The notes under the pieces are model-generated. The model did not search any database, was not told the DNA's origin, and worked only from the letters and a program-made list of their open reading frames with translations. Of a stretch of 64,000 nt of DNA, positions 1 to 11,679 are shown piece after piece. This stretch comes from an uncultured Planctomycetota bacterium (GTDB lineage: Bacteria; Planctomycetota; Phycisphaerae; Sedimentisphaerales; UBA12454). The stretch is taken from assembly GCA_903847315.1 (NCBI GenBank), contig CAINDG010000050.1, forward strand, positions 1 to 64,000, written 5' to 3'. Positions within the stretch are counted from its first letter, which is position 1, and each line of letters starts with the position of its first letter. Both the position numbers and the translations under genes were made by a program.

Positions 1-1456
1 AGCAAATTCTCGCTTCCGATTTTGAATCCGCGTTGCCGATTGCATACAAATATATAATCGCTATGAGCATAATCACATTTGTGATGACTCCAAGCACCGG
101 AATTATTCCGTGTTTGAAGAGACTGTAATCGGCACGTTTCCTGAACGCTACGATGGTCCACACGCAAGTCAGGCCGTAAAGCACAAATGTTCCGAAGTTA
201 GATGCCAGCGTAATGCCGGTAAGACCTACGACTGATTGTACGCCTATAGCGCCGATTATAGAGGTAACAATTACCAGCGTCCATAATGCCGTATGAGGTG
301 TGCTGTGTTTGCTGATAAAGCTGAGATATTTCGGCAGTTCGAGGTCTTCAGCCATACCGCAGGTTACTCGCACAGCGGTGTTCATACAGCTTAATGTTGT
401 ACCTATAACGGCGATTGCAACAGTGAGCGCCATAGAAATCATCAGTGCAAAGCCCAGACCCGGCACGAGGCTGTTGCCGATAATTTTTACCAGGTCTCCG
501 ATAGGAGCGCCTGATGCGGCAGCGGCAGCAATGCCGGTTACAGTTTGTGTACCGGCTGTACCGGTCAATTTATCGTTAATCATATAGCCTGCGCCGAAGT
601 ATTCCAGCAGGTATGCGAACAATCCTTGAATCACCAGCGATAAAATGATGGCTTTTGGAATTGTTGTTTTCGGTTCTTTCGTCTCAGCGGCAAGTGCGGT
701 GCAGCTTTCAAAACCGACCAGTATCAAAATCGCGAGGGTCGATTGAATCAGAACGCCGTTGAGCGAATGCGGCCGAATAACATCCCAACCGTTGCTGAAC
801 GCCCAGGTTGTCGCACCTTGAGGGTTATAGATACGGTACCAGATCGCCAGTGCCGTGAAAATAACCAGTGTGACAAGTTGTATGACGTTAATCCAGATCG
901 AAGTTTTTGTTGAGCCGGTTACGCCGCGGTAAGCTATGTATCCAGTGGCGAATGCGAACACAGTGCTGATCATTGCCAATGCCTCGGTCGATAAAATCTG
1001 TCCGCCGAATGCCGAGTAAAGATAACCAATAAGGTTTGCCATCATAGCTACCATAACTCCGGGATATACCCAGTAGAAAAGGTGTGCAGCCCATCCTGTA
1101 ACTATTTTCGCCATACGCGCTAAAGATGTAGGCGTTCCTCTTTTTACGCCGTCGCTGTCGAGAAACGCTTTTTCGGCAAAGTAGGTAACGCTTGCGAATC
1201 CGGCTTGCGGATATAATTTCGCAAGTTCTGAGTAGGAAATGGCAGTAAGAAAACATATAGCCAGCGCAACGACGATTCCCGCCCAGATATCGCTCGATAC
1301 CGAAGCGCCGCTCGGCGATGTGGCCGCGGCTTGCAGCTGATAGGTAATCCACAAAAACGCTCCCGGAGCAATCAGCGCCATAGCGTTTGCAGTTGCGCCG
1401 AACAAGCCTAATGTGGCTTTTATTTGCGGTTCCATCATTTTGTTTTCAGTTGACAC
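1..1456 (-). CDS. APC-family amino acid permease (3' end cut by window edge)
   Basis: Inner-membrane amino acid/polyamine transporter of the APC superfamily. About 485 codons lie in the window and no stop is reached. The translation is a series of hydrophobic helices. The N-terminal stretch GLFGATANAMALIAPGAF is the usual first APC helix, and a central GFESCTALAAETKEPKTTIP segment carries the family's conserved E(T)-x-P region. I chose a GTG start (reading VSTENKMMEPQIKA) because a GGAGA ribosome-binding site sits 6 bases upstream; an in-frame ATG lies six codons later. It follows the porin gene by 67 bp on the same strand and probably shares its sigma-54 promoter, suggesting coordinated amino acid uptake across both membranes. 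The substrate cannot be told from sequence alone. Confidence 0.85.
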   Translation of the reverse strand, partial: MSTENKMMEPQIKATLGLFGATANAMALIAPGAFLWITYQLQAAATSPSGASVSSDIWAGIVVALAICFLTAISYSELAKLYPQAGFASVTYFAEKAFLDSDGVKRGTPTSLARMAKIVTGWAAHLFYWVYPGVMVAMMANLIGYLYSAFGGQILSTEALAMISTVFAFATGYIAYRGVTGSTKTSIWINVIQLVTLVIFTALAIWYRIYNPQGATTWAFSNGWDVIRPHSLNGVLIQSTLAILILVGFESCTALAAETKEPKTTIPKAIILSLVIQGLFAYLLEYFGAGYMINDKLTGTAGTQTVTGIAAAAASGAPIGDLVKIIGNSLVPGLGFALMISMALTVAIAVIGTTLSCMNTAVRVTCGMAEDLELPKYLSFISKHSTPHTALWTLVIVTSIIGAIGVQSVVGLTGITLASNFGTFVLYGLTCVWTIVAFRKRADYSLFKHGIIPVLGVITNVIMLIAIIYLYAIGNADSKSEARIC

Positions 1457-1523: not shown

Positions 1524-2294
1524 TTAGAATGTTTTCGTTATACTTACACCCGTAAAGAAATAGTCGCTTGACCTGGCATACAGATCTGAACTTCTTATCG
1601 CGCCATCAGTCAGCGTTACATAGTTAATGTTTGGTCTTACCGTCCATCCGCCCGGGAAACATATAGGCAGGGCAAGGGTAAATGCCAAATCATTCAGATG
1701 GGACCCGTTTACATTCCAATAATCCCTATTATATGTCCCATTGCCCCAGCCGAGGCTTGCACCCCATTGCAGGTTGCAGTAGCATTTATCAGTAAAAGTC
1801 ATAACTTTTTCATAAGTATGTCCGATGCTGGCATTTACATAAGTTCCATTTTCATTACCGAGGCCGTGATACACTTTAATAGCCGGGCTCAAAGGCACAT
1901 CGAAGTTGAATCCCCAGTAAATCTCGGTCGTATCAAAATTATTTGCCAAAGAGCCTGGAAAGTGATAATGTATCGTTCCAATAGAATAGCCGACTTTGCT
2001 ATCTTCGCTGAATTTGTTGCTGTAATCGAGTGTCAAATCATATTCGGTAACTTTGCCGCTTCGGTTACGATAATCTGTCATATCCGCATTCATCCATACA
2101 TTGGCAGTCCATTTTCCGTATGTTGCGGTAACGCTCGGCTGAAAAGCGGCGCCATTAGTAATCACTTGGCCGCGCCAGACGTACTTGGTGAAAAAATCGC
2201 TGCCGATGGAAAATCCAAGCTTGTCTTCACCTTCGGCTAGAACGGTTGAGCAGGTTATAAAAGAACATACAAGCACAATAACGCACCTTCTCAT
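1524..2294 (-). CDS. Outer-membrane beta-barrel protein, TorF/Gcw_chp-like putative porin
   Basis: A 256-residue exported protein with a clear signal peptide ending near residue 20 (...STVLA|E). The rest is rich in alternating aromatic/polar strands (YVWRG, TANVWMNADM, YDLTLDYS) and ends in phenylalanine (SITKTF), the classic outer-membrane barrel signature. The opening GFSIGSDFFTKYVWRG resembles the TorF/Gcw_chp putative porin family (TIGR02001-like); this is my recognition and was not searched. A strong RBS (GGAGGT) precedes the ATG. A perfect-looking sigma-54 promoter lies about 70 bp upstream, and the sigma-54 activator gene is next door. Likely role: nutrient diffusion pore working with the downstream amino acid permease. 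Confidence 0.75.
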   Translation of the reverse strand: MRRCVIVLVCSFITCSTVLAEGEDKLGFSIGSDFFTKYVWRGQVITNGAAFQPSVTATYGKWTANVWMNADMTDYRNRSGKVTEYDLTLDYSNKFSEDSKVGYSIGTIHYHFPGSLANNFDTTEIYWGFNFDVPLSPAIKVYHGLGNENGTYVNASIGHTYEKVMTFTDKCYCNLQWGASLGWGNGTYNRDYWNVNGSHLNDLAFTLALPICFPGGWTVRPNINYVTLTDGAIRSSDLYARSSDYFFTGVSITKTF

Positions 2295-2514: not shown

Positions 2515-4044
2515 CTATGAGAGCATTTTTGGGAAAATGCCGTATTTTTTGATTTTGTACCCAAGGATTCGCTCTGTCAATCCCAGTTCCTTTGCGGCTT
2601 TTCTTTGTTGTCCGCCGTATTTTTTAAGCGAGTCGATGATAAGCTCTTTTTCTTTGTTTTCGATAATTTCCGTAAGTGAGCGTCCCTGAGAAGTATCGCC
2701 TTTCTTAGTCATTTGCAGCGATGGCGGCAGATGTTCAGAGCGTATGACGTCTTCATTACATAAAAGAACGGCTCTTTCAATGCAGTTTTCCAGTTCCCTC
2801 ACGTTTCCGGGCCAGTGATAGCTTGTGAGCATTTCGATCGCCGGCGTCGATATCCTGGTAATACGCTTGGTATTTTCCTTGGACAGTTTTTCAAGAAAAT
2901 AATCGGCCAGGAGCATAATGTCGTCTTTTCGTTCTCTCAGCGGAGGCAGATAAATCGGAAAAACATTTATTCTGTAATATAGGTCTTCCCTGAAAAGTTT
3001 TTCCTTAATCTGTTCTTCAAGGTTCTTATTGGTAGCGACTATGATTCTTACATTCGCTTTTATAGTTTCAGTTCCGCCTACCCGTTCGATTTCTCTGAAC
3101 TGAATAACCCGCAGCAGTTTGACCTGCAGGTTCATTGAGAAATCGCCTATTTCATCGAGGAATATTGTGCCGCCGCTGGCTCTCTCGAATCTTCCGATTT
3201 TACGTTCGTTTGCCCCTGTGAAAGAGCCTTTTTCATGGCCGAAAAGCTCGCTTTCCAGCAGTGTTTCCGGCAGGGCGGTGCAGTTTACCTTTACGAAGGG
3301 TTTGCTTGCTCTTGTGCTGTTGTAATGTATTGCATGTGCGACAAGGTCTTTGCCGGTTCCGCTTTCGCCGCGAATCAGAACAGTCGCGGTGCTGTCTGCT
3401 ACTTTTTCGATGAGCCGGTAAATTTCTTTCATCGCATTGCTTGTACCGACCATATTATCGATATTGAAATGTGTTTTTAATTCCTGTCTGAGCCGCAGGT
3501 TTTCTTCCGAGAGCTGTCTTCTGTCCGACTCTACCAGTTTATTTAATTTTACAGCCTGCGCGACCATTGTCGCTATGACATTCAGGAAATTCAGGTTTGC
3601 TTCCACGTCATCGCCTTTTTGAACCTGCTTGTCAACGCTGAGAGTGCCGATAGTTCTGCTCTCGAGTTTTATGGGTACGCAGTAAAACGCCGTTTGTTTG
3701 CCCTGTATTTGTTTACGGGAATGTGTTTTATGAAGAAATCTGCTGTCCTTTGAAATGTCCGGCACAACGATTTCCTTTCCGGTCTGAACAACGGTGCCGG
3801 TGATGCCTTCGCCGATTTTATAACTGCCTAATTGCTTGGATTCTTCACTCAAACCGTGAGCCACTTTTATATGTATGGTTTCAGTTTGCGGCTCAAGAAG
3901 GGTAATAGTGCCTCGCTGCAGTTTCAGGTGCGTATCGAGCGATTTCAAAATCGCTTTTAACGTAAGTTCAAGGTCCAGCGACTCGGCAAGAGCCCTTGCC
4001 ATATCGCCCAATAACTGAACTTCTTTGGATAAATTTACAGCCAT
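2515..4044 (-). CDS. Sigma-54-dependent transcriptional activator, NifA-like (GAF-AAA+-Fis)
   Basis: A 509-residue enhancer-binding protein. The N-terminal ~170 residues form a GAF-type sensor domain resembling NifA ([18 protein letters not shown]). A linker leads to the AAA+ domain with Walker A GESGTGKD (about residue 228), the sigma-54 contact loop as GSFTGA (usual GAFTGA, second residue changed), Walker [12 protein letters not shown] and the [12 protein letters not shown]-type sensor region ([14 protein letters not shown]). The C-terminus is a Fis-type helix-turn-helix ([23 protein letters not shown]). No receiver domain is present, so a small ligand or redox signal at the GAF domain is expected rather than phosphorylation. 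It probably drives the sigma-54 promoter of the downstream porin-permease unit. No nif genes are nearby, so nifA itself is not claimed. Confidence 0.9.
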
Positions 4045-4303: not shown

Positions 4304-4474
4304 TTAATATCCAAAAACTCTATAGGAGAGAATTATTACATCCTCAAAAGGCAAATCAAGTAATTTTTGTAATTTTTTAGCAGAATTCACTTTTTTTAAT
4401 AATTTATAGCCGCCGATAGTATATTTTTTTCTAAGTTCTTCTGCCACAAAGATTAACAGTGAGAAAATAAACAA
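4304..4474 (-). CDS. Possible 56-residue small protein after kdpD
   Basis: An open frame directly after the kdpD stop reads a hydrophobic start (FIFSLLIFVAEELRKKY) and then a lysine-rich amphipathic segment ending VIILSYRVFGY. No ATG is available. The best start is TTG with GGGGA four bases upstream; a GTG ten codons in is an alternative. The composition looks coding and the frame precedes the operon's terminator. No family is recognised. It may be a small kdp-associated membrane protein or a decayed remnant of the missing KdpD kinase end, although it does not look like an HATPase domain. Confidence 0.3.
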   Translation of the reverse strand: MFIFSLLIFVAEELRKKYTIGGYKLLKKVNSAKKLQKLLDLPFEDVIILSYRVFGY

Positions 4475-4508
4475 TATTCCCCAGTCTGTTCGACCAATAC
4501 CTATGGTT

Positions 4509-6683
4509 TTAATTGTCCCAGTTAATTAGTTTCGGCAGTTCACTAACAAGATTATTTATACGTTCTATTTCGTCGCGCATTTTTTGAATTAAAATGGCGT
4601 GCTTTGAGGGGTCATTAATATTTTCAGGCTTTAACAATTCCGAGGCGGTTTGGGAAATAGATTTTAAAGGTTCGGGAAGCTCGTACGAAAAAGTGGTCAA
4701 AATCAAATCCCTGATTCGCTCATTTTTAACCTTGGATTCGGCTTCAAGAGCGGCTGCGGCAAGTTGTGCGCCTTCAACGGCCAAGGCAGTCTGGCCGACA
4801 AATACCTCAAGCAGATGAAATTGGTCGGGACCTGTAAACTGAGTATCATCGGATGAGAAAACGCCAATAACGCCAACAGTTTTTTCCAAACCAATAAAAG
4901 GCAAATAAACGCCGGTCGAGCCGGGCAAGGTGTCGGTATTTTTGCCGGCGATTTTTTTGTGCTCGTACGACCATTGAGCAACGGCAAACTCGGCGAGGTT
5001 CAAATCCGATTTTGAGGACAAGTCAAAACGAGTCTCAAGTTTATCACCGATGGGCGTTAAAATAATGGACTGACACTGAAAAAAATCCTGAATGTGTCTG
5101 ATAGCAATTTTAAAAAGTTCGTCGGGATAAGAACTTTTGGACAAATCACGTGTTAGGGCATACAGGGCCTGGGTGCGATCCTCACGAATACGCATAGCCA
5201 TAGTCTGGCGACGAAGGCGGCCTGTGAGGTGAGCAATGGAAAATCCAACGGCAAGCATTATCAGGAATGTTATAAAATATTCAGCATCCGAAACGGCGAT
5301 GGTAAAATATGGCGGGACAAAGAAGAAATCAAAAAACAAGACGCTTAAAAAGGAGGCTATTATCGACATCCGTCGGCCATAGCGATAAGCAATCCATGTT
5401 ACGCCGAGCAGATAGACCATAACCAAATTTACCGGAGTGATATATCGAAATATAAGCGAATTAACAAAAGTGCAAAGAGCAATTATGCAGATAGTCCAGA
5501 CTAAACTTGACCAGGGGAAAGCGCGAGCAGCAGGCGGTTCGGATTTTACAATATGCTTTGGGGATTCACCGCTGAGGAAATAAAGGTCGATTTCGCCGCA
5601 GTTTCGAGCCAATTTGTCAATGATGGAACCGAAAATAAACTCCTGCCAACGGGGCTTGCCGGGTTTGCCGACAATTATTTTTGTAACGTTTTTGGAGCGG
5701 GCATAAGAAATCAAAGTCTCGGCCACTTCCTGGCCGATAAGCGTTGTCGTCTGAGCGCCTAAACTTTCCGCCAGGCGAAGCATTTCAGATATTCTATTTC
5801 TATCTTCCACTGACATATGAGAAGGCGTTTCGACATGCGCGACAATCCATTCGACGCCTAAATCGGAGGCGATTCGTTTTCCGGCCCTGACGAGGCGTAC
5901 GGCGCCGGGATTCGAACTTACGCAAACAAGAAATCTGTCGCGGACGCCCCAGACTTTTGAAATCGAATGTGCCTGTTTGTATAAAAGCAATTTGGAATCG
6001 ATGCTGCGCTCTGTATAACGCAATGCAAGCTGACGCAACGCAATCAAATTTCCCGGCTGAAAGAAATGATGAGCGGCCCACTGGGCCTGCTCTCCGAGAT
6101 AAACTTTTCCTTCTTTGAGACGCTTTAAAAGCTCTTCGGTGGGGATATCCACAAGCTCTATTTCTTCCGCTCTTTCAATGAACGTATCAGATACGGTCTC
6201 GCGAACGGTTACACCGGTAACCTGAGCGACGATATCATTTGCACTTTCGCAGTGCTGGACGTTTAAAGTTGTGTAAACGTCAATACCAGCGTCGAGAAGC
6301 TCGTCAACGTCCTGCAGACGTTTGAGGTGGCGCGAGCCGGGGGCGTTGGAGTGTGCCAATTCGTCAACGAGAATAACGGCGGGTTTTCTTTTTAAAGCGG
6401 CGTCGATGTTAAATTCGCGAAGCTTGACATTCTTATAGTCGATGATTTTGGGCGGGAGAATCTCGAGACCTTCGAGAAGTGCCTCTGTCTCGGGGCGTTT
6501 GTGGGTTTCGATGTAGCCGACAATAATATCAACGCCTTCTTTTTTCAGGCGTCTGGCGGATTCGAGCATTTTGTAGGTTTTTCCCACGCCGGCGACGGCG
6601 CCAAAGAAGATTTTGAGTCTGCCGCGATGAGCATCCTGAGCTTTTACCTTTGCCAAAATTTCGTCGGGATTCGGCCTGTCCAT
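4509..6683 (-). CDS. kdpD: KdpD-type sensor protein lacking a functional histidine kinase core
   Basis: 724 residues against about 890 in E. coli KdpD. Present: the N-terminal KdpD domain with Walker A GAVAGVGKT (28-36), a universal-stress-protein domain (~250-370), four membrane helices (~395-490) and a GAF domain (~510-640). The C-terminus has a degenerate dimerisation helix: where the H-box histidine should be the sequence reads SYELPEPLKS, with Tyr667 replacing His. The protein then stops after a coiled-coil-like helix with no N, G1 or G2 boxes, so no ATPase domain exists. No kdpE response regulator occurs in the window. It closes the kdpFABC operon, 37 bp after kdpC. It is probably a non-kinase K+/c-di-AMP sensing or scaffold protein; the USP domain of other KdpDs binds c-di-AMP (known family fact). 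Confidence 0.9.
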   Translation of the reverse strand: MDRPNPDEILAKVKAQDAHRGRLKIFFGAVAGVGKTYKMLESARRLKKEGVDIIVGYIETHKRPETEALLEGLEILPPKIIDYKNVKLREFNIDAALKRKPAVILVDELAHSNAPGSRHLKRLQDVDELLDAGIDVYTTLNVQHCESANDIVAQVTGVTVRETVSDTFIERAEEIELVDIPTEELLKRLKEGKVYLGEQAQWAAHHFFQPGNLIALRQLALRYTERSIDSKLLLYKQAHSISKVWGVRDRFLVCVSSNPGAVRLVRAGKRIASDLGVEWIVAHVETPSHMSVEDRNRISEMLRLAESLGAQTTTLIGQEVAETLISYARSKNVTKIIVGKPGKPRWQEFIFGSIIDKLARNCGEIDLYFLSGESPKHIVKSEPPAARAFPWSSLVWTICIIALCTFVNSLIFRYITPVNLVMVYLLGVTWIAYRYGRRMSIIASFLSVLFFDFFFVPPYFTIAVSDAEYFITFLIMLAVGFSIAHLTGRLRRQTMAMRIREDRTQALYALTRDLSKSSYPDELFKIAIRHIQDFFQCQSIILTPIGDKLETRFDLSSKSDLNLAEFAVAQWSYEHKKIAGKNTDTLPGSTGVYLPFIGLEKTVGVIGVFSSDDTQFTGPDQFHLLEVFVGQTALAVEGAQLAAAALEAESKVKNERIRDLILTTFSYELPEPLKSISQTASELLKPENINDPSKHAILIQKMRDEIERINNLVSELPKLINWDN

Positions 6684-6720: not shown

Positions 6721-7296
6721 TTATTTTTTATATTCATCCAACGCTAAATTAAGTTCCAGCACGTTTACCACCGGTTCGCCTAAAACTGACAGAAAGCGTT
6801 TATTAGTATGCCGAACGATAATTTCCTTGACTGTATTCTGCGATAAATTCCGCAGACGCGCGATGCGAGGAAGCTGATAATAGGCACCGGCCAAACTAAT
6901 ATGCGGGTCCAGGCCGCTTGCCGAAGAAGTAACAAGGTCGATGGGAACAGGGTTTGTATTGTTCGGGTCGGCGGCTTTGTATGCCTTGACGCGATTTTTT
7001 ATCGTTTCCGCCAGCGTGGGATTCGAGGGGCCGAGATTAGAACCTGACGAAGAGGCGGCGTTAAATGCGACCGGTGACGTTGCTGAAGGGCGAGGCCAGA
7101 AATATTTGGAGTCGTCGAAAGACTGGCCGATAAACGATGAGCCTACTGGTTTGCCGTTTCGATAAATCAGGCTGCCATCGGCTTTGCTATGAAAGAATAC
7201 CTGAGAAACTCCGGTAATAAAAAGCGGATAGAGAATTCCCGTGATGACTGTCAGAATCAGGAAAGTTAAAATCGCAGTTTTAAGTTCTTTAAACAT
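6721..7296 (-). CDS. kdpC: K+-transporting ATPase subunit C
   Basis: A 191-residue KdpC of ordinary length. An N-terminal membrane anchor (TAILTFLILTVITGILYPLFITGVSQVFF) is followed by the conserved periplasmic part with GSxLIG-type FIGQSFDDSKYFWPRPSAT and the SASGLDPHIS motif. KdpC stabilises nucleotide binding by KdpB in the KdpFABC high-affinity potassium pump. It lies 12 bp downstream of kdpB in the same operon. Confidence 0.97.
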   Translation of the reverse strand: MFKELKTAILTFLILTVITGILYPLFITGVSQVFFHSKADGSLIYRNGKPVGSSFIGQSFDDSKYFWPRPSATSPVAFNAASSSGSNLGPSNPTLAETIKNRVKAYKAADPNNTNPVPIDLVTSSASGLDPHISLAGAYYQLPRIARLRNLSQNTVKEIIVRHTNKRFLSVLGEPVVNVLELNLALDEYKK

Positions 7297-7308: not shown

Positions 7309-9387
7309 TCAAACCAAATGCAAAACAACCAGAATCATATCAATTAATTTAATTCCTATGAACGGAGCGATAATTCCGCCTACGCCGTAGATCAGCAGAT
7401 TATCCCGCAAAAGGCGGTTTGCCGGCATCGGCTTGTAAGCGACGCCTCGCAAGGCCAGCGGAATAAGAAATATAATAATAATCGCGTTAAAAATAACCGC
7501 TGATAATATAGCGCTATCAGGTGTGGCAAGACGCATAATATTAAGGGCCTTAAGAGCGGGATAAGTACCCACGAACGCGGCGGGAATAATCGCAAAATAT
7601 TTGGAGATGTCGTTGGCAATGCTGAAGGTTGTGAGCGAACCTCGTGTCATAAGAAGCTGCTTTCCGATTTCAACGATTTCGATGAGCTTAGTCGGATTGG
7701 AATCGAGATCAACCATATTTCCGGCCTCTTTCGCGGCCTGAGTTCCGGTATTCATAGCGACCGCGACATCGGCCTGCGCCAGAGCCGGGGCGTCATTGGT
7801 TCCATCACCGGTCATAGCGACGAGCCTGCCGCCGGCCTGCATTTCGCGGATAAGTTTAAGTTTTGTTTCCGGGGTGGCCTGTGCGAGAAAATTATCCATA
7901 CCGGCCTCTGCGGCAATCGCTGCCGCTGTCAGAGGGTTGTCTCCTGTAATCATTACAGTTTTAATTCCCATACTGCGAAGCTGTGCGAAACGCTCTTTTA
8001 TGCCACCTTTTACAATGTCCTTGAGGTGCACAACGCCAAGGACGTTTTTGTGTTCGGCGACGACCAGAGGAGTGCCGCCACTTCTGGAAATGGAATCGAT
8101 GGCGGATTTTAAATCATCTGGGAAGGAACCTCCAAGGTTCTTTATATAGTTCTCGATAGCATCAACGGCTCCTTTTCGGATTTGCTTGCCATCGCCCAAA
8201 TCCACGCCGCTCATCCGAGTTTGAGCCGTGAATGGAATGAATTTTGCCTGCAACTCGTGAATATTGCGCTCTCTTATGCCATATTTTTCTTTTGCCAAGA
8301 CGACAATACTTCGGCCTTCGGGAGTTTCATCGGATAAAGATGCAATCTGGGCGGCGTCGGCCAATGCTTCGACGGATATCCCGTAAGCAGGTATGAAAGC
8401 CGTGGCTTGGCGGTTGCCCAGGGTAATGGTTCCTGTTTTATCCAAAAGCAAAACGTCCACATCGCCGGCGGCTTCGACTGCACGGCCGGAAGTTGCGATG
8501 ACGTTTGCCTGAATCATCCTGTCCATACCTGCAATACCGATGGCCGGAAGCAGGCCGCCGATAGTGGTCGGGATAAGGCATACGAGCAGCGCAACCAGGA
8601 CGGTTATTGTTACAGGCTGGCCGAAACCTTCTGAGTTGACACTGTAAATGGAAAACGGCAGAAGTGTTACCGTAACTAATAGAAATATAAGAGTAAACAC
8701 TGCCAATAAAATATTAAGCGCGATTTCATTCGGGGTTTTCTGTCTCTTTGCGCCTTCGACCATAGCAATCATATGGTCAAGGAATGTTTCGCCGGGATTA
8801 GAACTGACACGAACTACAAGCCAATCTGAAAGAACGCGAGTTCCGCCTGTGACGGCGCTGCGATCTCCGCCGCTTTCGCGAATGACAGGAGCGCTTTCGC
8901 CGGTAATTGCGCTTTCATCTACAGAGGCCACTCCATCAATTACCTCGCCGTCCATCGGAATAAAATCGCCCGCCTCGACGAGAACAATGTCTCCTTTTCG
9001 GAGCGTTGTCGCGGAAACTGTCTGGTAAGGAGAGCCGTATTTGGGCTTTGAAAGTTTTTTTGCGGGAGTGTCTTTTCTGGCACGCCTGAGACTTGCGGCC
9101 TGAGCTTTGCCGCGACCTTCGGCCATAGCCTCGGAAAAATTGGCGAAAATCAGCGTAAACCACAGCCATAATGAGATGGCTAAAATAAACCACGCGGGCG
9201 CTTCGCCGTGATGCGAAAGAATCGCCTGAAGCCATAAGCCGGTAGTTAATATGCTGCCAATTAAAACCACAAACATCACGGGATTTTTGATTTGATGGCG
9301 AGGGTCTAATTTTCTGAGCGAATCAATGATTGCCGGGCCTATGATAGAGGGATCAAACAAAGATTTAGATTTATGAGATTTACTCAT
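7309..9387 (-). CDS. kdpB: K+-transporting P-type ATPase subunit B
   Basis: A 692-residue catalytic P-type ATPase subunit. Visible motifs: the TGES actuator loop ([20 protein letters not shown]), the phosphorylation site DKTGT ([13 protein letters not shown]), the hinge [18 protein letters not shown] and [21 protein letters not shown]. The family's Ser within TGES is present. It hydrolyses ATP to drive K+ import through KdpA. Its start codon overlaps the kdpA stop (ATGA), indicating translational coupling. Confidence 0.98.
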
Positions 9388-11135
9388 CGCAAACCTCCGG
9401 TCATCATTAAATGCTCGACAATTGGACCTAAAGCAAGGGCCGGGAAAAACGTAAGTGCCCCGACAATCAAAATAATCATAACAAGAAATAGAATAAACAA
9501 TGGCGTATGTGTCGGTAGAGTGCCATGGCTGGATGGCACAATTTTTTTCTTCGAAAGAGAACCGGCAATGGCAAGCATTGGTATCGCAAGCCAGTATCTC
9601 GCGAAAAACATCGCCAGGCCCAGCGCAATATTATAAAAAAGATTATTTGTGGATAAGCCTGCGAACGCGCTGCCGTTATTGTTTCCAGTGGAAGAAAAGG
9701 CGTAAAGCACTTCACTAAAGCCATGGGGCCCCGGGTTGAAGATTGCCGCTTTTGCCTGTGGTAAAACGACTGAGACAGCAGTGCCGGCAAGAACGAGAAT
9801 GGGCGGAATCAAAATCACAAGTGAGGCCATTTTCATCTCATAAGATTCTATTTTCTTGCCCAGATATTCGGGAGTGCGGCCAATCATAAGGCCTGAAATA
9901 AAAACGGCGATAATCACAAACGCAATCATACCATAAAAGCCGGAGCCTACGCCGCCGAAAATCACTTCTCCTAATTGCATAAGCCACATCGGAATCATAC
10001 CGCTAAGAGGCATAAAAGAATCATGCATTGAATTTACCGAGCCGTTGGAAGCGGCGGTAGTGGCTGTCGCCCAGATGGCGGAATTCACTATTCCAAAGCG
10101 AACTTCTTTTCCTTCCATATTTCCGCCTGACTGAAAAGCGGTAACGTTCTGGTCAACGCCCAAATGAGCTAACAGGGGATTGCTTTTTTGTTCGAAGTAT
10201 ATGCAGCAATAGAGACAGGGAATAAAAATTATCAGCATAGCCGCTAAAATCGCCCAGCCCTGGCGAGTGTCTGAAACCATAAGCCCAAACGTATAGCATA
10301 AAGCGGCCGATATAAGAAGTATCGCCAGAACTTCCATAAAATTCGATAATGGCGTTGGGTTTTCAAACGGATGAGCGGAGTTAACATTGAAAAATCCTCC
10401 GCCATTTGTGCCTAATTGTTTGATGGCAATCTGTGAAGCAGCCGGGCCAACAGCAAGTATTTGCTCTGAAACAATTTTTCCCTCTGCATCTTTTGTCGGC
10501 TGAAGTAATGAAACTTTCACACTGGGCTTAAAAGTCTGGACAACACCCTGCGAAACCAAAACCAGCGACAGTATAATCGCCAGAGGCATTAAGATATAAA
10601 GAGTTGACCTGACCAAATCGACCCAGAAGTTGCCTATAGTGTCGATTTGCTTTTGAACAAACCCTCTGATTAAGGCGACGAGGATTGCCATTCCTGTCGC
10701 AGCGGAGACAAAGTTCTGCACAGTCAATCCGAGCATCTGCGTAAGATAGCTTAAGGTTGTCTCGCCGCCGTAACTTTGCCAATTGGTATTGGTAGCGAAA
10801 CTAACCGCTGTATTGAACGCCAAATCCGGCGGGACGGCAGGTATCGACATCGGGTTTAAAACAAGGTGTGCCTGTAAACGCTGAAGAGCGTAAACAACTA
10901 TTAAGCCAATAATATTAAACAACATTACGGCAAAAGCATAAGTTTTCCAGGTCATACTTATTTGGGAGTTGACTGCCGAGAAGCGGTAAATCAATTTTTC
11001 CACCGGCGATAACCATACGTTCAAGCCGACAGGTTTTCCTTCATATATACGAGCCATATATATGCCGAGCGGCTTTACCAATAAAAGCAGTGCGGCCAGA
11101 AAAATAACGCTTTGTATAATATTATTCAAAGTCAT
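9384..11135 (-). CDS. kdpA: K+-transporting ATPase subunit A
   Basis: A 583-residue polytopic membrane protein of the SKT superfamily, carrying the selectivity-filter-like motifs of Kdp[33 protein letters not shown] and [15 protein letters not shown]. It forms the potassium pathway of the Kdp pump. The ATG overlaps the kdpF stop and its own stop overlaps kdpB, so kdpF-A-B are translationally coupled. Confidence 0.98.
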
Positions 11136-11224
11136 GAGAATATCTCCGGCTTTAAAAGGGCAACCAGCAGATAAATAAACAGCAGCAGTGAAACAACTGC
11201 GCCTATCCAGTAAATAATTGGCAT
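11132..11224 (-). CDS. kdpF: K+-transporting ATPase small subunit F
   Basis: A 30-residue single-helix peptide starting MPIIYWIGAVVS and ending [13 protein letters not shown]. It matches KdpF's usual size and its Y-L-x-x-A-L-x-x-x-E-x-F tail. An RBS GGGAGAAA precedes the ATG, and the TGA stop overlaps the kdpA ATG. KdpF stabilises the KdpFABC complex in the membrane. Confidence 0.9.
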   Translation of the reverse strand: MPIIYWIGAVVSLLLFIYLLVALLKPEIFS

Positions 11225-11237
11225 ATAGTATTTCTCC

Positions 11238-11318
11238 CTAAACCTTTTCGCACAACGCGATAAACGCAAAGGTTACTACAGACAGCAAAACTATTATCAG
11301 CAGAAAAAAGATATCCAT
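11238..11318 (-). CDS. 26-residue membrane micro-protein leading the kdp operon
   Basis: Reading MDIFFLLIIVLLSVVT followed by FAFIALCEKV: one hydrophobic helix with a short charged tail ending in Cys-Glu-Lys-Val. It sits 13 bp upstream of kdpF and downstream of the riboswitch terminator. From memory, short peptides with a C-[DE]-[KR]-[LV] tail precede kdpF/kdpA in other bacteria; this was not checked. It could be an additional Kdp subunit or a translated leader. The RBS is weak (GGAA). Confidence 0.5.
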   Translation of the reverse strand: MDIFFLLIIVLLSVVTFAFIALCEKV

Positions 11319-11447
11319 TTTTATTTTCCAAAAACAATCAAAGTATAAATTCTACCACCTGACTATTTATAAAACAACATCTGCAGCAAGAGAGGTATCC
11401 GCTTTTTTATCAAATCATATAAGTATTTCCCTTTATGGTGGGCATAG

Positions 11448-11478
11448 GGAAAACGAAAAACCGCCAGGCGGCAGTTTT
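11448..11478 (-). terminator. Terminator hairpin of the kdp riboswitch
   Basis: Minus-strand GCCGCC-TGGCGG hairpin followed by TTTTTCGTTTT, lying about 25 bases after the aptamer and 130 bases before the first kdp ORF. This is the expected expression platform of a transcription-terminating riboswitch; the usual ydaO response is shut-off when c-di-AMP is high. Confidence 0.6.
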
Positions 11479-11496
11479 GTATCCAGCCATTGCCCT

Positions 11497-11622
11497 TTCA
11501 AAAGCCTACGAGGTTAGCTGACGGGCGAGGACTTGAAAGTGTCCTTTTCTCCTGAAGGAGAAATTAGCCCCAAAATTTGGGTCCCCCGTATTTGTGCAAT
11601 TACGCACAAATCTCGGCTACAA
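11497..11622 (-). promoter_or_regulatory. ydaO/yuaA-type c-di-AMP riboswitch aptamer
   Basis: The minus-strand leader of the kdp operon contains the hallmark segments of this riboswitch class in order: GTAGCCGAGA, a variable hairpin (TTTGTGCG...GCACAAA), ACGGGGGACCCA, TTGGGGCTAAT, then CCCGTCAGCTAACCTCGTAGGC. The last block is the most diagnostic, and the outer GTAGCC and GGCTTT can pair as the P1 stem. ydaO riboswitches bind cyclic di-AMP and commonly control potassium uptake genes. It is followed by a terminator hairpin. A covariance-model (RF00379) search was not possible here; the match is by eye but dense. Confidence 0.88.
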
Positions 11623-11650
11623 TAACGTATATATTTTTTTTGTTGATATA

Positions 11651-11679
11651 ATGCTATATATGCTTTTTTTACGTGTCAA
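11651..11679 (-). promoter_or_regulatory. Promoter of the kdp operon
   Basis: Minus-strand TTGACA (11674-11679), 17-base spacer, TAGCAT (11651-11656). Transcription would start near 11644, just ahead of the riboswitch aptamer. The -35 is perfect. Confidence 0.6.

Follow-up and report, generated by a model that had tools for sequence, protein, structure and literature searches.

The window analyzed here, i.e., the whole stretch of 64,000 nucleotides from an uncultured member of the Planctomycetota, carries a kdp operon on its minus strand and, in the leader of that operon, a c-di-AMP (ydaO, RF00379) riboswitch aptamer at 11488..11628. Below, G000 denotes the genome of the window (2.4 Mb), G003 a genome of the same genus, and the remaining G and L numbers comparison genomes and loci. 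The aptamer was recovered with cmscan (Rfam 15) at 11628-11488(-) with 86.9 bits (E 6.9e-19) against a curated gathering score of 38 bits for RF00379, the match spans the model from end to end (1-134 of 134, not truncated), and it is the only RF00379 copy in the genome. A first-pass annotation made from the letters of the sequence had called a ydaO aptamer here and suggested an Infernal run with RF00379 as a check; the significant covariance-model match bears out both the call and its placement. The aptamer sits 5' of kdp on the same strand (352 nt to kdpA, 169 nt to the first small ORF), and the leader folded 3.9 standard deviations better than its shuffles. Two marks of the RF00379 class were found, i.e., a 5' leader position before a gene for K+/osmolyte transport or the cell wall on the same strand, and an expression platform, here a conserved terminator at 11478-11449. 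Judged by its sequence, the RNA is a true member of the known c-di-AMP riboswitch class, and it is predicted to bind the ligand.

The operon, which had been taken as the controlled unit and indeed follows the switch on the same strand, runs kdpF-A-B-C-D. kdpF (11132..11224 (-), 30 aa) was matched by PF09604 (E 6.6e-9) and, over the cut-off, by TIGR02115, kdpA (9384..11135 (-)) by PF03814 (E 9e-246) and TIGR00680, kdpB (7309..9387 (-)) by TIGR01497 (1094 bits), with the DKTGT and TGES motifs intact, and kdpC (6721..7296 (-)) by PF02669 and TIGR00681; the TGES motif of KdpB (reading TGESAPV) is the equivalent of E. coli S162. Before kdpF lies a hydrophobic ORF of 26 aa (11238..11318 (-)) that is conserved in this position in many kdp operons and had no family match in Pfam or NCBIfam. 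Single-span hydrophobic peptides of 26-28 aa with a pattern like MDxLFxxII...SFAFIxLCxKx occur ~90 nt 5' of kdpF in several phyla, and were also seen upstream of kdpF/kdpA at L114-L116, L118-L122, L124-L126, L138, L156, L161, and L174; possibly, this peptide is an unannotated Kdp subunit. The genes downstream of the kdp block encode a NifA-like GAF/sigma-54 activator (2515-4044(-)), a 256-aa protein without a Pfam match (1524-2294(-)), and an amino-acid-permease-like protein (2-1456(-)). At L193, a secreted protein encoded between kdpA and kdpB (5534-6356) looks by eye like the 256-aa product.

Upstream of the aptamer, a near-consensus sigma-70-like promoter (TTGACA-17-TAGCAT, 10/12 consensus matches) was located at 11651..11679 (-), and an intrinsic terminator with a 9-bp stem, a 4-nt loop, and a U tract follows the aptamer at 11449..11478 (-), so that the promoter and terminator of the first-pass annotation both stand. 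A TTGACA box is present 43-51 nt 5' of the aptamer in G003, G009, and G002 as well, in G003 at the same position as in the window. The terminator reads AAAACTGCCGCCTGGCGGTTTT-T-CGTTTT, its hairpin was estimated at approximately -12.6 kcal/mol, and the stem is kept in G009 and also in G003, where a U-G pair is replaced by U-A. Folding the RNA up to the 5' arm of the terminator gave weak alternative pairs and no clear antiterminator. Past the terminator, a possible second promoter (TTGTTT-17-TGG/TAGAAT, with an extended -10) can be read at 11349..11377 (-), and this extended -10-like box could bypass the switch. If so, the riboswitch would be real, kdp would also or mainly be transcribed from 11377-11349, and c-di-AMP would modulate only part of the expression. 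In favor of such a bypass are the extended -10-like TGGTAGAAT with its 17-nt spacer, which is well conserved between G000 and G003 while the neighboring leader diverges, and the extra leader of ~107 nt that is missing in L114, whose leader is short and without the candidate box. However, its -35 matches the consensus at only 3/6 positions, the box fell under the threshold of the consensus scanner and was not listed by it, and the promoter 5' of the aptamer, itself conserved, is the stronger of the two, which makes this the less likely route to kdp expression, and by a good way.

The last gene of the operon, kdpD (4509..6683 (-), 724 aa), encodes a kinase-less protein in which KdpD-N, Usp, DUF4118 transmembrane, and GAF domains are followed by a DHp stub, neither HisKA nor HATPase being matched with Pfam. 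Its H-box region reads FSYELPEPL, compared with SHDLRTPL in histidine kinases, and the phospho-acceptor histidine is therefore gone. As this is the sole KdpD (PF02702) in the genome, a kinase half surviving as a separate second KdpD was rejected. A frameshift or assembly error behind the loss is unlikely because the G003 protein has the same end (90% identity), those of L114 and others are of similar length, and the next ORF lies 464 nt downstream. No KdpE was found beside kdp, and one hidden elsewhere in the genome was rejected, since the best match there shares only 40% identity with E. coli KdpE and adjoins another, unrelated histidine kinase; with the same query, which was checked against annotated kdpE genes, full-length KdpE-like regulators beside comparison kdp operons were mostly 48-62% identical to KdpE (41% at L127). 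The operon thus departs from the canonical KdpDE-controlled type on both counts, with a KdpD that lacks the His and HATPase parts and no KdpE found.

KdpD has been described as an atypical serine kinase of KdpB S162, and kinase-less KdpD as occurring in species without KdpE (PMC11018627). The window resembles that system in its KdpD-N domain (PF02702, E 8e-92) with the nucleotide-binding motif FFGAVAGVGKT and its AGVGKT loop, in the Usp domain, and in the TGES target serine of KdpB. It differs in that most of the c-di-AMP motif, (A/G/C)XSXSX2N (PMC8214093; for KdpD also PMC4686210), is missing from Usp, which reads CVSSNPGA and agrees with the motif only at the C and the first S. It is therefore unlikely that c-di-AMP has a further point of entry in KdpD, and regulation of a KdpD serine kinase by K+, through the retained TM/GAF domains, appears more likely. 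By analogy, the sole function left to KdpD is probably that of a KdpB serine kinase, in which it would do no more than inhibit the pump by phosphorylating the TGES serine.

Traces of the origin of this arrangement were found at the yidC-mnmE site of related genomes. G002 (L042) has riboswitch-ktrB at this site, G009 (L040) riboswitch-ktrB-P-type ATPase (EIIA-fused), and G003 (L041) riboswitch-kdpFABCD, and in other relatives yidC adjoins mnmE with no switch between them. In the G009 ktrB operon, the P-type cation ATPase (L040:8327-11548(-)) carries a PTS EIIA_2 domain at its N terminus as a fusion. In the genome of the window, yidC and mnmE are adjacent elsewhere, and the riboswitch-kdp block now stands beside panB. 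Directly after kdpD lies a remnant of 98 bp (4412..4509 (-)), consisting of the 3' end of the P-type ATPase gene (its last ~90 bp) and the first mnmE bases; it reads TIGIG.TDW...FSLLIF.AEELRKK and reached a local score of 96 against G009, the shuffle maximum being 25. This remnant suggests an order of events in which ktrB-ATPase came first, kdp second, and the relocation third, a direction that is read from one remnant and three flanking loci. A ktrB remnant was also sought in the kdp leader, where none scored above shuffles. TrkH is missing in G000 and G003 and present in most of the relatives searched, and among 40 relatives kdp was found in G000 and G003 only, apart from a weak partial KdpA match in G034. 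Between these two genomes the kdp cassette is more alike (KdpB 95%, KdpA 89%, KdpD 90% identity) than YidC (75%) and MnmE (70%), so a transfer between the lineages is possible.

In the history that we favor, the switch was the older resident and served a channel of the TrkH/KtrB type in the gap between yidC and mnmE. A kdp operon with kinase-less KdpD then came in and took the place of the channel genes immediately after the terminator, and the whole riboswitch-kdp block later moved beside panB in the lineage of the window. Alternatively, a donor akin to Omnitrophota or Phycisphaerales could have passed on riboswitch and kdp together as one horizontal unit, in which case the likeness to the ktrB switch would be secondary; the riboswitches seen elsewhere in the kinase-less kdp clade, which spans several phyla, would fit such a joint arrival. 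Compared over the aptamer plus 50 nt, however, the G009 ktrB switch shares 92% identity with the switch of G003 and 86% with that of the window, but the kdp switch of L114 only 66-68% with these two, although the KdpA proteins of the window and L114 share 85% identity. The homology to G009 runs from the aptamer and stops just 5' of the ktrB start codon, and both operons are flanked by yidC and mnmE. We consider joint arrival distinctly improbable, and retain the exchange of a channel for kdp behind a resident switch.

The genome has a single gene for a CdaA-type diadenylate cyclase (L047:6264-7133, G000 C34; DAC domain E 1.2e-37), together with one for a 7TM-HD (PgpH-type) phosphodiesterase homologue, and from this gene content the host is predicted to make c-di-AMP. 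The active site of CdaA reads HDLA, where most homologues have HDGA; HDLA or HDMA is found clade-wide, and GSRHRA is intact. Among named genomes, the protein is closest to CdaA of two Phycisphaerales (61% and 57% identity), followed by that of another planctomycete (47%) and those of anammox bacteria and Omnitrophota (mostly up to 39%), an order that points to the class Phycisphaerae within the Planctomycetota. Since the cyclase, which the first-pass annotation had asked to be looked for, and the covariance-model match are both present, neither of the two outcomes that it had named as speaking against its reading (no significant match to the model, or no diadenylate cyclase in the genome) occurred.

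In B. thuringiensis BMB171, a c-di-AMP riboswitch controls kdpFABC, and c-di-AMP promotes termination, as established by experiment (PMC6488665). By analogy with that operon, we propose an OFF switch. When K+ is plentiful, CdaA would make c-di-AMP, which would stabilize the aptamer, so that the terminator hairpin at 11478-11449 is formed and the transcript ends short of kdpF; at low K+ and low c-di-AMP, the polymerase would run on into the operon, and the high-affinity pump would be made. In transcriptional control, the switch would in this way stand in for the missing KdpDE two-component system. Control at the level of translation, or an ON switch in place of a terminating OFF switch, to which the want of a clear antiterminator might point, is very improbable: a canonical terminator stands directly after the aptamer and ~130 nt 5' of the first ORF, no ribosome-binding site is overlapped, and the layout is that of the B. 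thuringiensis kdp leader, where termination is promoted by c-di-AMP (PMC6488665). A decayed aptamer that has lost c-di-AMP binding is scarcely credible, as the match scores 86.9 bits across the full RF00379 model, the core blocks are intact in the window and identical in G003 and G009, and the G003 aptamer as a whole is nearly identical. All in all, we are confident of the reading as a whole, namely an OFF switch on kdpFABC-kdpD that replaces KdpDE, and a resident switch under which a channel was swapped for kdp before the block was relocated.

In order to place the pairing of riboswitch and kdp in a wider frame, a model was built here and run over the loci of the 80 KdpA proteins of GTDB genomes that are most closely related to that of the window, and Rfam was run as well on the closest among them. 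RF00379 was found directly 5' of kdp at L114 (Phycisphaerales), L117, L118, L120, L121, and L124 (Omnitrophota), L123 (Desantisbacteria), and L125 (Atribacterota), and the model built here added a riboswitch at L193 (Phycisphaerales). At L190, 4.8 kb separate the riboswitch from kdpA further downstream, and it was rejected as a kdp leader. At L123 (9463-9860, Desantisbacteria), two c-di-AMP aptamers stand in tandem before kdp. When loci were tallied that had a readable KdpD and either a riboswitch or 600 nt or more of upstream sequence, the switch was present at 8/14 loci with kinase-less KdpD and at 0/28 with full-length KdpD (Fisher p 2.5e-5, for rows that are not independent). The kinase-less loci L115, L116, L122, and L126 yielded no weak riboswitch even at E 1. 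L119 and L132 have a kinase-less KdpD, no switch, and a KdpE-like regulator upstream, which fits a mutual exclusion of riboswitch and KdpDE; L125 is ambiguous, with a switch and a partial regulator match (43%) at the contig edge. In the KdpA tree, all riboswitch loci but one fall into a single multi-phylum cluster. The exception, L193, is placed among loci with full-length KdpD, and its own KdpD ends after the GAF domain, a position and truncation that together suggest an independent second case.

Within the Planctomycetota, RF00379 was present in 46 of the 392 sampled genomes, nearly all copies lying before genes for K+ or other transporters. For 58 riboswitches, including that of the window, the 2.6 kb behind each were compared with seven representative proteins: TrkH/KtrB types accounted for 23 clients, KimA-like APC permeases for 17, a second APC-like permease with a Usp domain for 6, a band-7 protein for 3, Kup and Kdp for 2 each, and none was found for 5. 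The switches before APC-like permeases include those at L079-L082, L085, and L089 (the L081 protein, which was scanned, matched Pfam only at its C-terminal Usp), and those at L048, L063, and L078 precede the gene of a large band-7/SPFH (flotillin-like) protein, which is not an obvious K+ transporter. By these counts, the window switch is nothing out of the ordinary within a K+-transport regulon, and Kdp is the unusual client. The first-pass annotation had named Firmicutes, Actinobacteria, and a few other groups as the main holders of ydaO riboswitches; in this phylum they are not rare, and it is kdp as a client of the class that is rare there. The majority of copies precede TrkH/KtrB and KimA-like permeases, as among the known K+-uptake riboswitches of the same class, from which the window differs in that the controlled operon is the Kdp P-type ATPase.

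As riboswitch control of kdp was previously shown in B. thuringiensis (PMC6488665), only the phylum is new in the original observation. The introduction of that study lists predictions before K+ transporter genes, including kdp, in several phyla, Planctomycetota and Omnitrophota not being among them, and it describes the riboswitch-kdp arrangement as restricted to Bacillales, with KdpD reduced to its N-terminal part; riboswitch together with kinase-less KdpD was noted elsewhere only for some Bacillota (PMC11018627). Searches of open-access literature turned up no account of riboswitch-kdp in Planctomycetota or Omnitrophota. The B. thuringiensis operon (PMC6488665) and that of the window share an RF00379 aptamer and an intrinsic terminator in the kdpFABC leader, the lack of KdpE, and a KdpD without kinase domain. 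They differ in that the K+-responsive OFF logic is experimental there and proposed by analogy here, that the KdpD of the window retains transmembrane, GAF, and DHp-stub regions, and that in the window, which belongs to the Planctomycetota, the switch served ktrB/trkH earlier. The aptamer class and its control of kdp were already known; what is new is the additional phyla, the link to kinase-less KdpD, and the transporter swap. The first-pass annotation had mentioned neither the B. thuringiensis precedent nor the missing kinase half of KdpD nor the swap.

A broader generalization, which we put forward tentatively and give slightly less than an even chance, is that the switch serves as a control port that stays in place while whole K+ uptake systems are exchanged under it, and that kdp capture with loss of the KdpD kinase happened independently at least three times (the Bacillus cereus group, the multi-phylum kdp clade of the window, and L193), so that RNA control substitutes for the two-component system. 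Riboswitch control of Kdp, as predicted here, would widen from Bacillales to Planctomycetota, Omnitrophota, Desantisbacteria, and Atribacterota, and the distribution supports, beyond Bacillota, a mutual exclusion of the RNA switch and KdpDE. The kinase-less, membrane-anchored KdpDs offer material for asking whether the serine-kinase function survives alone, and the molecular fossil behind kdpD records the rewiring of a second-messenger circuit in which the RNA sensor was kept and the transporter exchanged.
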